Shown here: piece after piece, positions 19,009-30,055 of the stretch
Position numbering within the stretch: position 1 is the first letter of the stretch
How the letters are laid out: each line of letters begins with the position of its first letter
Assembly (NCBI GenBank): GCA_022843585.1
Contig: JALHNJ010000001.1
Coordinates: 1-64,000, forward strand
DNA: 64,000 bases
Origin: Chitinophagaceae bacterium
GTDB lineage: Bacteria; Bacteroidota; Bacteroidia; Chitinophagales; Chitinophagaceae
Direction: 5' to 3'
Made by a program: the position numbers and the translations under genes
The notes under the pieces: generated by a model
Database searches by the model: none
Seen by the model: only the letters and a program-made list of their open reading frames with translations
Told to the model about the DNA's origin: nothing

Positions 19009-20406
19009 ATGGACTCAAAACTCTCCCGTCGCAATGCGTTAAAACTTTTTGGAATTACAGTGGGCGGTACTTTCTTTCCAATTTCTTCCTGGGCAACCAA
19101 TGAAAATGGAGAACCCTTGCTGCTTCCGGAAAATAGGGAGCACCAACCATTGGCAAAAGCTGTAACCGCAATTACATTAGGTGCAGGGTCAAGAGGCAAT
19201 GTATATGGCGGCTTTGCGGTAGAGTTTCCTGATCAGTTAGATATTGTAGGAGTAGCAGAACCTATTGCTCTTCGCAATGAACGATACAGTAAGAAACATA
19301 ATATACCTGCAGAAAATCGTTTCAACACCTGGGAAGATGTTTTTAAGCGACCAAAATTTGCAGATGCGATCATTATTACCACACCAGATTATTTACATTA
19401 TGGTCCTTGTATGGCGGCATTAAAAATGGGGTACGATGTGTTATTGGAAAAACCAATTTCACCATCAGAACAAGAGTGCAGAGATATATTGGCTTTAGCA
19501 AAAAAGACGGGACGAATTGTAGCCGTATGCCATGTGCTTCGCTATGCGCCTTATTTTATAAAGTTGAAAGAGTTAATTCAAAACGGCTCCATTGGCGAAG
19601 TAGTAAGTATGCAACACTTTGAGCCAATCGAACATATTCATATGAGTCATTCTTATGTTCGGGGCAATTGGCACAACAGTAAAAAAACAACCCCGATCAT
19701 TTTAGCAAAGTCTTGCCATGATCTTGATATTATTAAGTGGATGTTGGGAAAAGAATCAAAAAAGATACAGGCATTCGGAAATTTGAAATGGTTTCGTAAA
19801 GAAAATGCACCGGCAGGAAGTACTGAACGCTGTGCAGATGGTTGTTCTGTTGAAAGCACCTGCCCATACTCAGCACAAAAAATTTATTATCGGAAACGTA
19901 ACTGGACTTATGTATTTGATCTACCCGAAGAAAAAGAAAAACAAGGCGATGCTATTTTGAATTATTTAAAGACCACCAACTACGGCCGCTGTGTTTATAA
20001 AATGGAGAATGACCAATGCGATCATTACGTAAGCAATATTTTATTTGAAGATGGTGTAACGGCCAGCTTTAGTATGGAAGCTTTTACTCCATGGGGTGGC
20101 CGTCGCACAAGAGTGATGGGCAGCATGGGTTTTATAGAAGGTGATATGAATAAATTTACGATCCATGATTTTCGTACCGGCGAAACAAAAACCTACGAAT
20201 CAAAAGCACTGGACCAGGAAAATTATAAGAATCAGGGACATGGTGGTGGCGATTGGCGACTGGCTGCAGATTGGGTGCAAGCCGTTTCAAAACAAGATGC
20301 TTCATTACTTTCCTCAACCATTGATGCTTCTATCGAAAGCCATGTAATGTGTTTTGCGGCAGAAAAAAGCAGGAAAGAAGATAAAGTGGTGGAAATAAAA
20401 GTCTAA
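19009..20406 (+). CDS. Gfo/Idh/MocA family oxidoreductase with Tat-like signal
   Basis: 'MDSKLSRRNALKLFGITVGGTFF' leader; 'DAIIITTPDYLHYGPCMAALKMGYDVLLEKPIS'. Confidence 0.88.
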   Translation: MDSKLSRRNALKLFGITVGGTFFPISSWATNENGEPLLLPENREHQPLAKAVTAITLGAGSRGNVYGGFAVEFPDQLDIVGVAEPIALRNERYSKKHNIPAENRFNTWEDVFKRPKFADAIIITTPDYLHYGPCMAALKMGYDVLLEKPISPSEQECRDILALAKKTGRIVAVCHVLRYAPYFIKLKELIQNGSIGEVVSMQHFEPIEHIHMSHSYVRGNWHNSKKTTPIILAKSCHDLDIIKWMLGKESKKIQAFGNLKWFRKENAPAGSTERCADGCSVESTCPYSAQKIYYRKRNWTYVFDLPEEKEKQGDAILNYLKTTNYGRCVYKMENDQCDHYVSNILFEDGVTASFSMEAFTPWGGRRTRVMGSMGFIEGDMNKFTIHDFRTGETKTYESKALDQENYKNQGHGGGDWRLAADWVQAVSKQDASLLSSTIDASIESHVMCFAAEKSRKEDKVVEIKV

Positions 20407-21332
20407 TTTTTTACTGAAGCATAATTAACGGCTATCTCGGCTCCCACTTTCGCATTGTGTTTTATTAATGCGATGTTCGCTTCGAGGCTTTCACCTTTTG
20501 TATGCCCGGCTATATATTGTAGAAGAAATGGTGTTACATTTTTGCCAGTAATGTTTTTCTCTTTCGCTGCATTCAATGCCTGCAGAATATGTACTTCCAT
20601 TTCAGCAGCATTTATTTCATATTCGGCAGGAACTGGATTGGCAATAAGTATGGTCCCGTTTAATCCCAGCTTCCATTTGGTATCAATCAGCGCAGCAATT
20701 TCCTTTGCTGTATCCAATCGCAACGGAGAAGCAAAACCACTTTTGCGGGAGTAGAAACTCGGAAACTCATCTTGTCCGTATGTAACAACAGGAATTCCCA
20801 ATGTTTCTAAATATTCCAAGGTTAATCCAATATCTAAAATAGATTTTACCCCGGCTGATACAATTGCAACGGATGTTTGTGCCATCTCTGTAAGGTCAGC
20901 AGAAATATCCATTGTTTTTTCTGCTTCCCGATGCACACCACCAATGCCGCCGGTTACAAAAACTTTTATGCCCGCCATGGATGCAATTCGCATCGTAGCG
21001 GCCACCGTTGTTGCTCCATATAAATTTTGACTGATTACATAGGGCATATCCCGCAGACTTACTTTCCAAACATCTTTTGTCTCGCCTGAGGCGAGACCGA
21101 AATATTCCAATTGCTCTTTAGTCAACCCAACATGGCATTTTCCATTAAAGATGGCAATCGTTGCAGGTATTGCACCGTTGTCTCTTACCGCTTGCTCCAC
21201 TGCGATGGCGGTTTCTACATTTTTTGGGTATGGCATTCCATGCGAAATGATAGTGGACTCCAATGCAACAACAGCTTTACCATTTGTTAGTGCTTCGTTT
21301 ACTTCTGGATGTATAGTGAGAAATGAATTCAT
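20403..21332 (-). CDS. psuG: Pseudouridine-5'-phosphate glycosidase
   Basis: 'VVALESTIISHGMPYPKNVETA', 'VFVTGGIGGVHREAE', 'VVSAGVKSILDIG'-like motifs. Confidence 0.93.
   Translation of the reverse strand: MNSFLTIHPEVNEALTNGKAVVALESTIISHGMPYPKNVETAIAVEQAVRDNGAIPATIAIFNGKCHVGLTKEQLEYFGLASGETKDVWKVSLRDMPYVISQNLYGATTVAATMRIASMAGIKVFVTGGIGGVHREAEKTMDISADLTEMAQTSVAIVSAGVKSILDIGLTLEYLETLGIPVVTYGQDEFPSFYSRKSGFASPLRLDTAKEIAALIDTKWKLGLNGTILIANPVPAEYEINAAEMEVHILQALNAAKEKNITGKNVTPFLLQYIAGHTKGESLEANIALIKHNAKVGAEIAVNYASVKN
21079..21097. repeat. Perfect short palindrome inside psuG
   Basis: GTCTCGCC-TGA-GGCGAGAC, 8-bp arms, 3-nt loop. Confidence 0.8.
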
Positions 21333-21333
21333 C

Positions 21334-21726
21334 TTAAATACCAGGAATATTTTCAATTACTAATTTGGCTCCATTTTTATCTAAGTAGGTAACCGTCATT
21401 TTATCCAAATCTGTAACCCATTTTTCTACCCCCGCTTCGGCTGATTGTAAACAGAAGGTTGGGTAATCCGATTGCCCGGCCTGGTGGATTTTTAGTGCTA
21501 CTCTTAGATTTTCTGCTGACGATTCGTCTTTTACTATCATTAAGGGCTTGCCATAAGTTATTTTCAAACCCTCTCCTGATGCATCGTAAAAAACATTGGC
21601 ACTTTCTGCCACCCAATGTTCATAGTTAACAACTCCCAATGCTTTAAAAGTTTTTATTAAGCCGGGAAAGTCTTTTCCACTTTTTACTTTAGACTGTGCT
21701 TCCAGTATTTGATCTTTTGTAAACAT
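21334..21726 (-). CDS. DUF1398 family protein
   Basis: 'MFTKDQILEAQSKVKSGKDFPGLIKTFKALGVVNYEHWVAES' pattern; lies between psuK and psuG. Confidence 0.7.
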   Translation of the reverse strand: MFTKDQILEAQSKVKSGKDFPGLIKTFKALGVVNYEHWVAESANVFYDASGEGLKITYGKPLMIVKDESSAENLRVALKIHQAGQSDYPTFCLQSAEAGVEKWVTDLDKMTVTYLDKNGAKLVIENIPGI

Positions 21727-21739
21727 TTTGGTTTGATTT

Positions 21740-22666
21740 TTATTCAGGATAATATTTGGAAACAAGTCCCAATAATTTTTCTTGTGAAAGATGTGTGGCA
21801 ATAGCACCATTCACTTGCAATATTTCTGCAGACAGCGTATGTGCCAGCTTTAAACAGTCAATTGCTTCTTTGCCAAGATGTTTGCCCAAAATATAGCCCG
21901 ACAAAGAACCATCGCCGGCTCCGGTGCAATCAACTACTTCAATGGAAGGAGCATTCAGACTAATTGATTTTTCTTTAGTGTAAAGCGCAGAACCATGTTT
22001 GCCATTATGCAACCAGATATTTTGTACGCCACGGTTCAACAATTCTTCTACTTGTTGCTGTGTAAAGAAGGCTTTATCAGAACAAAGCACCGGTAACTCA
22101 TCTTCATTTGGGGTGATCATATGCAAGCCGTTAAGATTTGCATTTTTATATTTTCTTGCAGGAGGAACGGAAACAGGTTCAATTACAAAGGGAATTTCTG
22201 TTTCGCAACTAAAATTTAATATCCATTCGGCAGTATCTACATTGATATTGGCATCGGCTAATATATAAGAAGCCGTTTTCAATAAGTCAATATGCTTTTC
22301 TAAATGCTGTGGCGTTATTAAATGATTGGCCGCATTAGTAAGAAATGCTGTGTAGAGTGAGCCATCTGGATTTAGAATGCCGGTATATTTTCCTGAGAGT
22401 CCTGTCCGGGTAATTGTTGCATCCAGTTTAACCCCAGCAGAAGTACAAACCTGTTTTAACCAGTCGCCATCACTATCGTTTCCAACAGCAGTTATTAGTT
22501 GAACAGGCACACCCAATAAGGCCAATTGATGAGCAATATTGCGACTTACACCACCGGCGCTTTTAGTTATGGTAGCATCCGTTGTAGTGGAGAGCAATAA
22601 TTCTGTTGTAGTATGGAACAATTCATCAACCAGCGCAGCGCCGATACAAATAACAGGTCTTGGCAT
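21740..22666 (-). CDS. psuK: PfkB-family carbohydrate kinase, probably pseudouridine kinase
   Basis: 'KSAGGVSRNIAHQLALLG', 'VDCTGAGDGSLSGYI'; operonic with psuG. Confidence 0.85.
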   Translation of the reverse strand: MPRPVICIGAALVDELFHTTTELLLSTTTDATITKSAGGVSRNIAHQLALLGVPVQLITAVGNDSDGDWLKQVCTSAGVKLDATITRTGLSGKYTGILNPDGSLYTAFLTNAANHLITPQHLEKHIDLLKTASYILADANINVDTAEWILNFSCETEIPFVIEPVSVPPARKYKNANLNGLHMITPNEDELPVLCSDKAFFTQQQVEELLNRGVQNIWLHNGKHGSALYTKEKSISLNAPSIEVVDCTGAGDGSLSGYILGKHLGKEAIDCLKLAHTLSAEILQVNGAIATHLSQEKLLGLVSKYYPE

Positions 22667-26674: not shown

Positions 26675-26803
26675 TTGGATTGATGATTTAATGCCAGGAA
26701 CTTGAATTTTAGTAGTTGTATCAATAGCTATTATTATTCCAACCTAAATATTTATTTAGAACTATTACAGTGAATGATCAATGATTAATACCTGTAATCA
26801 TAG

Positions 26804-26831
26804 TTCACATTAATAATTAATTATTCACATT
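26804..26831. promoter_or_regulatory. Direct repeat plus palindrome upstream of the SET/ATP-grasp operon
   Basis: TTCACATT at 26804-26811 and 26824-26831 (20-bp phasing); palindrome AATAATTAATTATT at 26812-26825. Confidence 0.4.
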
Positions 26832-26899
26832 TAACGGGTACAAATTTTTTACATTAAACAATATATCTATCTTTCTATTACAATACTACTAACCCCTTT

Positions 26900-27406
26900 A
26901 TGGATACATTAACCGCTCCTGCTTATCGCACAATAAGCAACCATCAAATTGCCGAGGTTCGGCAAAAATTATCCAACGAACAAAACGCATTATTTGCTCT
27001 TCGGTCCTATCAGCCGGGAGAAATTATTGCGGATTTTTCTGCCGGAACTATTTCTGCCGAACCAACGTATTTAACAGTGCAGGTGGGAGTTAATAAGCAC
27101 ATCACACTACAACCAGAGTTTTTGCAATACATCAATCATAGTTGTAACCCCAATGTTTTTTTTGATACCAGTGCTATGCAATTAGTAGCATTAAATGAGT
27201 TACAGGCAGAAGACGAATTAACCTTTTTCTATCCTTCTACCGAATGGCAAATGACTCAGTCATTCAATTGCTATTGTGGAAGCAATGCATGCATTGGTGA
27301 TATACAAGGAGCAGCTTATCTATCCAAAGAAGTACAAGAAAGATATCGCTTTACAGATTTTATACAACAACAACTGGCCAAACGGGCGGCAAGAAAAGTA
27401 GCCTGA
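26900..27406 (+). CDS. Stand-alone SET-domain protein with post-SET Cys motif
   Basis: 'NHSCNPNVFFD', 'EDELTFFYPSTEW', 'CYCGSNACIGD'. Confidence 0.85.
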   Translation: MDTLTAPAYRTISNHQIAEVRQKLSNEQNALFALRSYQPGEIIADFSAGTISAEPTYLTVQVGVNKHITLQPEFLQYINHSCNPNVFFDTSAMQLVALNELQAEDELTFFYPSTEWQMTQSFNCYCGSNACIGDIQGAAYLSKEVQERYRFTDFIQQQLAKRAARKVA

Positions 27407-27409
27407 ACT

Positions 27410-28579
27410 GTGATGAAGATTTCAGAAGCCTCCAGGTTATTAAAACCATACGTTATTTGGGTGTTGGCACCGCATCTGGAAACAGACGACCCCAATATTC
27501 AACACTACTACGATTTTACCCAAAGCATAAAAGAATACACAAAGGTTTTTGAAGAACTGAAGGCCGAATGGAAATGGCAGCCGGTTACAATGGACAACTT
27601 CAAAACAATAATCAAATCAATTGCTGATAGTAAGAACGGAAAAACTCCCTTGGTTTTAAATCTCTGCGATGGAGATGAAGTAAATGGCACTCCCGGTGTA
27701 TCCGTTATTTATGAATTAGAAAAATACGGATTGATCTATACAGGATCGGATGCCCATTTTTATAATATTACCACTTCGAAAATACCCATGAAGAAGGCTT
27801 TTGATAAAGCCGGGGTAACAACGGCCAATTGGCGGGTAATTACGGATAAGAAAGGTTCAACAAAGGGATTGGCAAAAAGAGTGGGAACGCCTATTATCAT
27901 AAAACCAGCGGTTTCAGGGGGCAGCATGGGTGTGTCCGTAAAAAATGTAGTGCATACAGAAGAAGAATTAAATAATAGAGTTCAGGAAATTTATAAAGGC
28001 TACCGTGGTTGGAATTTATTGGTAGATGGCCTTTTTGTAGAACAATTCATAACCGGTGCCGAGTACACCACTTTCATAACTGGCTCAGCTGATGATCAGG
28101 AAAATTGCATTGTATACGAACCTGTAAAAAGGGTTTTTCATGAATCACTTCCGGAGGCCGAAAAGTTTTTATCATTCGATCGTCTCTGGGAAATATATGA
28201 GGATGAATCGCCAATGCCGCAGAATGAAAATTTTTACGAGTATCGCCCAGCAGAAGCCGAACTCATACCCGAGCTGAAACAACTAAGTTTGGATGCTTAC
28301 AAATCTTGTGGTGGAAAGGGCTATACAAGAATTGACATTCGCCAGGATTCGGCAACAGGTAAATTATATATGCTGGAAGTAAATGCCCAGTGTGGTTTAA
28401 GTGAAGATGAGGACTATACTTCTATTGGTGCTATTCTTAAGGTTTCCAACGTTTCTTTTACTGAAATAATGGGGGAGATTTTGAAAGATGCGCTGAGAAG
28501 AAGTGTTGTTAATACTGCTCCTGTAAAACGAACAACCGGCAAAAGATCAACTACTAAAAAAACCGCTTCGGTTAAATAA
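27410..28579 (+). CDS. Ddl-like ATP-grasp ligase with Lys/Arg/Thr-rich C-terminal tail
   Basis: 'IIIKPAVSGGSMGVSV', 'YTRIDIRQDSATGKLYMLEVNAQCGLSED'; tail VKRTTGKRSTTKKTASVK. Confidence 0.85.
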   Translation: MMKISEASRLLKPYVIWVLAPHLETDDPNIQHYYDFTQSIKEYTKVFEELKAEWKWQPVTMDNFKTIIKSIADSKNGKTPLVLNLCDGDEVNGTPGVSVIYELEKYGLIYTGSDAHFYNITTSKIPMKKAFDKAGVTTANWRVITDKKGSTKGLAKRVGTPIIIKPAVSGGSMGVSVKNVVHTEEELNNRVQEIYKGYRGWNLLVDGLFVEQFITGAEYTTFITGSADDQENCIVYEPVKRVFHESLPEAEKFLSFDRLWEIYEDESPMPQNENFYEYRPAEAELIPELKQLSLDAYKSCGGKGYTRIDIRQDSATGKLYMLEVNAQCGLSEDEDYTSIGAILKVSNVSFTEIMGEILKDALRRSVVNTAPVKRTTGKRSTTKKTASVK

Positions 28580-28624
28580 CTATTTACCATTTTTATATTA
28601 CTCTACTCATTACCTTAGCGGTGC

Positions 28625-30055
28625 ATGAAAGTATGTGTACTACAACCTGATTATTCCACCACCGGAGTCGATTATAAAAATTACGATCCACCCAGGGACT
28701 TAACCCCATTCTTACCCGACGCAGAAGTGAACAATGTTTTTCTCAATAAGCTTACTACTTACAAACAACTGAAAGAACTTGGAAAACAGGGCTACGATAT
28801 TTTTGTAAATCTCTGTGAGGGTTATCTGGAATGGGAAGTCCCAAGCATTGATGTTATTTATACATTGGAACTTTTGAATCTTCCATTTACCGGACCATCC
28901 ACTAAACTTTACGACCCGCCAAAGGAATTAATGAAATACCTGGCTTATTGCGAAGGTGTAAAAACGCCGGGCTATGTAATCATTAATGAATTGAAAGATG
29001 CAGACGAAGCAGTAAAACATTTAAAGTTTCCGCTGTTTGTAAAACCCGCTAAAGCCGGCGATAGCCTCGGCGTAGATGAACATTCACTGGTGCATAATAA
29101 AATAGAGCTGCAACAAAAATGTATCAGCATTCTTGATGAGTATGGACCCTTGCTGGTAGAAGAATATATTGCCGGAAGAGAGTTTACTGTTTTAGTTGCT
29201 GCTAATACCGATGTTCACACTTGTACTGTATTCCGCCCGGTAGAATATTTATTTCCCGAAGGAAGAGAGTTTAAAACCTATGCTTTAAAAACATCTGAAC
29301 TGCATCCGGACTGCAATGTACCTTGTACTGATGAGGTGTTGGACAAACAACTTCGCATCGACACAGAAAAAATATTCAAAGGCTTTAATGGGGTTGGCTA
29401 TGCAAGATTAGATTTTCGTGTAAATGATAAGAACGAGATTTATTTTTTAGAGATCAATTTCACATGTTCTGTTTTTTATAAAGATGGATATGAAGGGTCG
29501 GCTGACTATATTTTAAAGCATGACGGTATTGGGCAAGCCGGGTTTTTAAAGCACATGATCGCCGAAGGCATTGCCCGACATAAACGGAGCAAGAAGCCTT
29601 TTATCATGAAGGGCAATTCAATTGCTGGTTATGGTATTTATGCTAATCGGAATATAAAGGAAGGCGAGACTATTTTTAAAGGCGAAGGCCGTTCACAACG
29701 AATCATCACTAAACGATTTGTGGAGAAAAATTGGAATGAGGATGAGAAGCTGCATTTCCGTCGCTATGCCTACCCTGTTAGCGAAGAGCTTTTTATTTTA
29801 TGGGATGATGATCCTTCTGAATGGGCACCTCAAAATCATTGTTGCGATCCCAACACAGCATTCGATGGGTTAAATGTTCTGGCACTAAAAAATATTTCAG
29901 CGGGAGAAGAACTCACACTCGACTATGCCCATTTCCTAGATGAAAATATGGAGCCTTTTCAATGCCAATGTGGTGCAAAAGAATGTCGTGGTTTGATTGA
30001 AGGAATTCCTAGTAATTCGCTTACAATAAGAGAAAAAGACATGTCGAAACTATAA
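28625..30055 (+). CDS. ATP-grasp ligase fused to C-terminal SET domain
   Basis: 'LFVKPAKAGDSLGVDE', 'YARLDFRVNDKNEIYFLEINFTC' followed by 'GYGIYANRNIKEGETIF', 'NHCCDPNTAFDG', 'GEELTLDYAHF', 'CQCGAKECRG'. Confidence 0.88.
   Translation: MKVCVLQPDYSTTGVDYKNYDPPRDLTPFLPDAEVNNVFLNKLTTYKQLKELGKQGYDIFVNLCEGYLEWEVPSIDVIYTLELLNLPFTGPSTKLYDPPKELMKYLAYCEGVKTPGYVIINELKDADEAVKHLKFPLFVKPAKAGDSLGVDEHSLVHNKIELQQKCISILDEYGPLLVEEYIAGREFTVLVAANTDVHTCTVFRPVEYLFPEGREFKTYALKTSELHPDCNVPCTDEVLDKQLRIDTEKIFKGFNGVGYARLDFRVNDKNEIYFLEINFTCSVFYKDGYEGSADYILKHDGIGQAGFLKHMIAEGIARHKRSKKPFIMKGNSIAGYGIYANRNIKEGETIFKGEGRSQRIITKRFVEKNWNEDEKLHFRRYAYPVSEELFILWDDDPSEWAPQNHCCDPNTAFDGLNVLALKNISAGEELTLDYAHFLDENMEPFQCQCGAKECRGLIEGIPSNSLTIREKDMSKL

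Follow-up and report, generated by a model that had tools for sequence, protein, structure and literature searches.

The DNA analysed here, a 64,000-nucleotide stretch that we call the window, comes from a Chitinophagaceae bacterium with a genome of 4.49 Mb, and carries three co-directional open reading frames separated by gaps of only 3 nt (A-B) and 45 nt (B-C) in an operon-like arrangement (Table 1). The ORF list and Pfam searches placed these genes, here called A, B and C, exactly where a sequence-only reading of the same DNA had put them, as a SET gene, a Ddl-like ATP-grasp gene and an ATP-grasp::SET fusion. Gene A matched the SET model (E 4e-8), gene B matched Dala_Dala_lig_C (2.7e-15), and C combined the two within one open frame, with Dala_Dala_lig_C at aa 126-278 (1.2e-19) and SET at aa 335-434 (2.5e-10). 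The start codon of B is GTG, and the next codon, an ATG at 27413, is also a possible start. The module is flanked upstream by a gene for a PIF1-type helicase and downstream by mnmG, which lies on the opposite strand. In the gap between the helicase gene and A, neither a conserved small ORF nor an Rfam match was found, and a riboswitch search of the window and four related loci returned nothing except one tRNA.

Table 1. Position and anatomy of the A-B-C module and its parts (window coordinates).
Feature	Position	Strand	Length and basis
Gene A: stand-alone SET methyltransferase, BurB-type	26900..27406	+	168 aa; ORF, PF00856, 23-sequence alignment, BurB the top PDB match
Gene B: stand-alone Ddl-like ATP-grasp ligase	27410..28579	+	389 aa; ORF, PF07478, 26-sequence alignment, alignment with the genome's own Ddl
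Gene C: ATP-grasp::SET fusion protein	28625..30055	+	476 aa; ORF, Pfam, alignment, AlphaFold2 model
ATP-grasp catalytic region of C	28922..29461	+	aa 100-279; K140, E179, R261, D263, E276, N278 invariant; Ddl structures the top fold matches
SET + post-SET region of C	29627..30013	+	aa 335-463; GxG 335-337, N404-H405, Y434, Cys407/447/449/454
Gap between helicase gene and A	26675..26899	.	225 nt; presumed (predicted) module promoter

The closest named relatives of C fall in Chitinophagaceae, Terrimonas, Sediminibacterium and Ferruginibacter. Six SET matches were found in the source genome (G000), A and C included; the other four are small proteins (C15:40568, C12:23012, C10:81460 and C3:170552; frames of 140-155 aa), and the two of these that were aligned group with neither A nor C. 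Elsewhere in the window (20403-22666), a pseudouridine-5'-phosphate glycosidase-like gene and a PfkB-type kinase-like gene, named from their sequences, flank a gene for a small protein, and these genes are syntenic with the module in some relatives.

To gauge how widely the arrangement is conserved, we searched 148 genomes of the family with C at a threshold of E <= 1e-20. Matches were obtained in 48 genomes, one of which (G134) proved to be B at a contig end, leaving C itself in 47: the source and 46 others, in which it is nearly always full length and 60-87% identical. A whole-genome search likewise recovered B in 48 of the 148. Among these B carriers, 47 have C, the exception being G134, where the contig ends after B, and 47 have A, the exception being G140, where the contig starts at B; one further family genome has a contig-end copy of A only. 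Fisher tests counting the 48 carriers gave p values of 5e-40 and 2e-36 for co-occurrence across the 148 genomes, figures that shared ancestry inflates. The sequence-only reading had named non-conserved neighbours and a fusion unique to this strain as the outcomes that would speak against it, and these counts, together with C fusions in four other families, dispose of both. Since the two domains were present in all 26 aligned relatives, as well as C in the 46 other family genomes, we rejected a sequencing or frame artefact as the source of the fusion, which that reading had rightly taken for a single polypeptide.

The neighbourhood survey that the same reading had proposed was carried out on 41 loci (40 fetched loci plus the window), and SET and two ATP-grasp genes do co-occur: B lies immediately or almost immediately before C in all 41, and A lies inside the cluster in 36. 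A and B overlap by 29-32 nt in several loci, B and C by 4 nt in several, and other gaps are short, which fits a single operon. About a third of the loci share the helicase/mnmG setting of the window and the rest lie elsewhere in the chromosome; since the A-B-C order persists while the settings vary, it is conserved far beyond chance. In addition, four genomes in which A is remote from B-C or on another contig (G022, G053, G094 and G119) have nevertheless kept it, implying that the link is functional and not merely positional. It is thus very likely, as had been proposed from this unit of SET, ATP-grasp and ATP-grasp::SET genes, now seen to be conserved, that ligation and methylation belong to one pathway.

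The pairwise distances of A, B and C track those of MnmG and NadD (r 0.76-0.88), indicating that the module has been inherited mostly vertically. Given these distances, and a module GC content (36-40%) equal to that of its flanks, a recent acquisition was rejected. Spread by plasmids was rejected as well, because the plasmid relatives are ATP-grasp-only or SET-only, with no fusion among them, as was carriage by phage, because no relative was found among viral contigs. A known anti-phage defence system was discarded because neither A, B and C nor D (a neighbouring gene described below) matched any PADLOC model.

Ddl-type ATP-grasps couple small amino acids. Both B and C retain the ATP/Mg site of Ddl (Lys, hinge Glu, Asp, Glu, Asn), and the residues concerned are invariant across 26 sequences of each protein, as listed for C in Table 1 and comprising K165, E211, R307, D309, E323 and N325 in B. 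The structure prediction suggested for the fusion yielded an AlphaFold2 model of C with a pLDDT of 87 and a pTM of 0.83, whose best fold matches were Ddl structures. The catalytic triad of Ddl, which we take to be Glu15-Ser150-Tyr216 in E. coli DdlB numbering, is a different matter. In an alignment with the genome's own Ddl, the Ser150 position (GSS) is occupied by Asp146 in C and by Gly in B, and the Tyr216 position (AKY) by Thr223 in C and lost in B; at the Glu15 position B and C are too divergent to align. The NTIPG of Ddl (NT.PG motif) is replaced by NFTCS in C (NFTCSVFY) and by NAQCG in B, giving an N-x-x-C pattern. Against TIGR01205, the Ddl model with a cut-off of 245.65 bits, B and C scored 80.9 and 83.1 bits, about a third of that cut-off, and a canonical Ddl is encoded elsewhere in the genome (G000:C12:8485-9081; 169.6 bits versus 73 and 58). 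For these reasons we rejected B and C as D-Ala-D-Ala ligases; that they might prove to be functional Ddl enzymes had been the third point raised against the sequence-only reading, and as far as sequence can tell it falls away.

The usual reading of a SET domain is that of a protein-lysine methyltransferase, and those of bacteria have mostly been discussed as effectors directed against host chromatin. In both A and the SET half of C we found the NHxC motif, a catalytic-type Tyr and the post-SET cysteines, with Pfam SET scores above cut-off. N79-H80-S81-C82, Y111 (the catalytic-type residue) and the post-SET cysteines C124, C126 and C131 of A are invariant in 23 sequences, as are G335/G337 and the other SET and post-SET residues of C given in Table 1 in 26. 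When a profile of A was compared with the PDB, BurB came first, at 3.9e-19 versus 8.8e-9 for the best histone enzyme, a difference of ten orders of magnitude. A Foldseek search with a model of A (pLDDT 94) gave the same ranking (BurB 6e-10, TM 0.67, versus 3.4e-6 for the best histone enzyme), and alignment revealed T-x-Q-like and Y-x-[ST]-T-E signatures common to A, BurB and several plasmid-borne SET proteins. A tree of SET domains placed A with this BurB/plasmid group and not with the SET half of C, deep support being weak; the latter matches MLL-type SET domains (2e-11) about as well as BurB (9.6e-12). BurB and MSMT are SET-domain methionine S-methyltransferases of DMSP synthesis, and BurB methylates free methionine, which it holds deep in the SET channel via main-chain atoms (PMC12542666).

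Because BurB is the nearest solved relative of A, protein methylation is no longer the default reading, and a small peptide or free amino acid becomes a more expected substrate than protein lysine. At the same time, three of the four SAM-contacting side chains of BurB differ in A (R133 to Q120, H138 to Y125 and H72 to L58), H93 alone being kept, as H80, so that BurB chemistry is not simply transferable and A should be called a BurB relative only. Since BurB binds methionine through main-chain atoms, the sequence of A is uninformative on its substrate. Among the plasmid relatives of A, which sit in small-molecule clusters, one lies in a polyketide cluster with DMSP-type neighbours, and on a plasmid of Tabrizicola piscis (L217:1124-6128) a BurB-like SET gene adjoins genes for a GHMP kinase, a PLP-dependent enzyme, a DMT transporter and an alanine racemase, a candidate for another SET small-molecule pathway.

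In 15 of the 41 loci C is followed, on the same strand, by a fourth gene, D, whose product of about 290 aa has a six-helix membrane domain of ABC type (PF13748, E 4e-43) but no ATPase domain. Taking matches of 130 bits or more as strong, we found D in 20 of the 148 family genomes, every one of them module-bearing (20 of 48 carriers versus 0 of 100 non-carriers; p 6e-12, with co-occurrence inflated by shared ancestry); in two of these (G045 and G134) it is unlinked, on another contig. Judged by this distribution, the presence of D depends on the module. No D was found in the source genome, whereas in G258, a genome of the same genus, it directly follows C (locus L195). Its absence from 28 of the 48 carriers means that export is no fixed part of the module.

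Within a phylum-wide sample of 396 genomes, full-length C fusions were also present in four further families: f28 (L187), f24 (L188), f54 (L192) and f18, in the last case in many genomes of one genus. We found no B beside C in these distant relatives outside the family. In the f18 genus, A is followed by C, then by a full-length ABC exporter (PF00664 + PF00005) whose closest models are MsbA-related and peptide exporters, and lastly by another small SET protein, ~120 aa long. One locus of this genus adjoins bchI, bchD and bchH, which suggests a green sulfur bacterium. An ABC-exporter-type partner of C is thus seen in two separate lineages, as D in Chitinophagaceae and as the full ABC exporter in the f18 genus, and export of the product by either may be envisaged. 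The sequence-only picture captured the three-gene unit but neither the link to D and export, nor the fusions outside the family, nor the kinship of A with BurB.

Several further arrangements came to light in these searches. The second small SET gene that follows the ABC exporter (L190:12256-12612 and L194:6812-7174; 118-120 aa) brings the number of SET domains per cluster to three. In the f24 locus (L188:4541-10292), C adjoins genes for an N-formylglutamate-amidohydrolase-like protein, a MATCAP-type peptidase and a GshB-like ATP-grasp. In Bacteroidota outside Chitinophagaceae (L200, L201, L204 and L205), recG recurs with two Ddl-like ATP-grasp genes (~355 aa each), several of these runs adding a gene for a GNAT acetyltransferase and one of lysine-2,3-aminomutase type (AblA model, 464 bits in L204), and together they look like a beta-amino-acid ligation pathway. 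On plasmid pTHIMO01 of Thioflavicoccus mobilis (L215:2485-7966), a Ddl-like ATP-grasp gene adjoins genes for diaminobutyrate/2,3-diaminopropionate synthesis and a KamA-family radical SAM protein.

Conserved order, near-obligate co-occurrence, invariant motifs of catalytic type, the relation of A to BurB and the dependence of D on the module are what the sequences themselves provide. The reading that we favour, at a probability of about one half, is that A-B-C form a pathway dedicated to making a small metabolite that is methylated and peptide-like (amide-linked). In such a pathway, A would act first, as a BurB-type enzyme: a free amino acid bound in its SET channel would be methylated on the side chain with SAM, either methionine being S-methylated, as BurB does, or a basic amino acid N-methylated. 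B would then use ATP to activate a carboxylate as an acyl phosphate and join it to an amine, and the ATP-grasp half of C would form a second amide bond, its SET half methylating the substrate or product of that step. In many relatives, the product would finally be passed to an ABC-exporter-type membrane protein, D in the family and the full ABC exporter in the f18 genus. The substrates, the number and order of the amide bonds, the methylated atom and the export step in this scheme are our suppositions, and both domains of C may act on one molecule.

The main rival, which we regard as unlikely, is protein modification: a cellular protein would have an amino acid or peptide attached by B and/or C, in the manner of RimK or TTLL enzymes, and its lysines methylated by the SET domains. 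Most characterised SET domains do act on protein lysine, the SET half of C matches MLL-type enzymes (2e-11), eukaryotic TTLL12 likewise joins SET-like and ATP-grasp (TTL) domains (PMC3520985), and a housekeeping role would fit the largely vertical inheritance. What tips the balance away from it is that A is closest to a free-amino-acid methyltransferase, that the ATP-grasps of B and C are Ddl-like and not RimK- or TTL-like, that D and the ABC exporter point to a small product that leaves the cell, and that no conserved target gene was found in the cluster across the 41 loci.

Less likely still is modification of the cell envelope, in which a peptidoglycan or lipid precursor would receive a methylated amino acid or dipeptide from the ligases and be flipped by the ABC-type membrane protein. 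The Ddl ancestry of the ligases, the clade-wide and largely vertical inheritance, and an exporter-type partner with a full-length version similar to MsbA-related and peptide exporters are all compatible with this; yet no recurrent mur, lipid or cell-wall genes adjoin the module in the 41 loci, and the membrane protein is missing from many carriers. That the locus encodes a graspetide-like RiPP, with a precursor peptide modified by the ATP-grasps, then methylated and exported, seems very improbable, since no conserved small ORF lies within 500 bp on either side in the 41 loci and the ATP-grasps match Ddl models, even if two ATP-grasps and an ABC exporter recall graspetide loci (PMC8939145). The least probable reading of all, that one or both domains of C have become non-catalytic or regulatory, as in the catalytically dead TTLL12 with its same two domain types (PMC3520985), is at odds with the ATP/Mg and SET/post-SET residues, which are invariant in 26 of 26 C sequences and kept in B and A.

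Returning to the small-metabolite pathway, A-B-C most likely represent a mostly vertically inherited, previously undescribed route in which amino acids are methylated and joined, with the product often exported. The wider proposition of a new pathway class in several Bacteroidota lineages, in which methylation of an amino acid by one SET enzyme is combined with its ligation and methylation by a bifunctional ATP-grasp::SET protein to give an exported, methylated peptide-like compound, is one that we put forward more tentatively, at somewhat less than even odds. The module points to a metabolite, probably undescribed, that roughly one in three sampled genomes of a large family from soil and freshwater would share, and it opens a direct way to test whether SET chemistry is widely applied to small molecules.

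A search of the open full-text literature for ATP-grasp combined with SET returned two papers naming both, neither with a description of such a system and only the one on TTLL12 relevant; an earlier mention in subscription journals, for example in surveys of ATP-grasp amidoligases, is possible. Each part of the module has known counterparts. Like BurB and MSMT, A is a protein of the same size with a full SET and post-SET region, shared signatures and the SAM-contacting histidine of NHxC, whereas it adjoins two ATP-grasp ligases in place of DMSP-pathway neighbours, and three of its four SAM-contacting side chains are changed. B and the N-terminal two thirds of C have the fold and the ATP/Mg residues of Ddl/Van ligases, but lack Ser150 and Tyr216 and carry N-x-x-C instead of NT.PG. 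BacD, the bacilysin-type L-amino-acid ligase, also performs ATP-grasp dipeptide synthesis within a small pathway and weakly matches B (1.5e-5), yet it belongs to another ATP-grasp subfamily and has no SET partners, while the module has no anticapsin genes. ATP-grasp ligases are also found in graspetide loci, frequently accompanied by an ABC exporter and a methyltransferase (PMC8939145), but the module has no precursor peptide, its ligases are Ddl-like, and SET takes the place of an O-methyltransferase. TTLL12, a eukaryotic, catalytically dead protein with SET-like and tubulin-tyrosine-ligase-like domains, is the only described protein that we found to join SET-like and ATP-grasp domains (PMC3520985). 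In TTLL12, however, the SET-like domain precedes the TTL-like one and catalytic residues are missing, whereas in C a Ddl-like ATP-grasp precedes the SET domain and the residues are intact, so that the two would represent parallel inventions and not a homologous fusion. Thus, although the parts are of known kinds, their combination, the fusion (apparently active by its motifs) and the module as a whole appear to be undescribed; gene order, co-occurrence and a single fusion tie SET domains to Ddl-like amide ligases in a conserved bacterial setting, and, should the proposed pathway prove true, C would be the first bifunctional enzyme of ATP-grasp/SET type that is catalytically competent.
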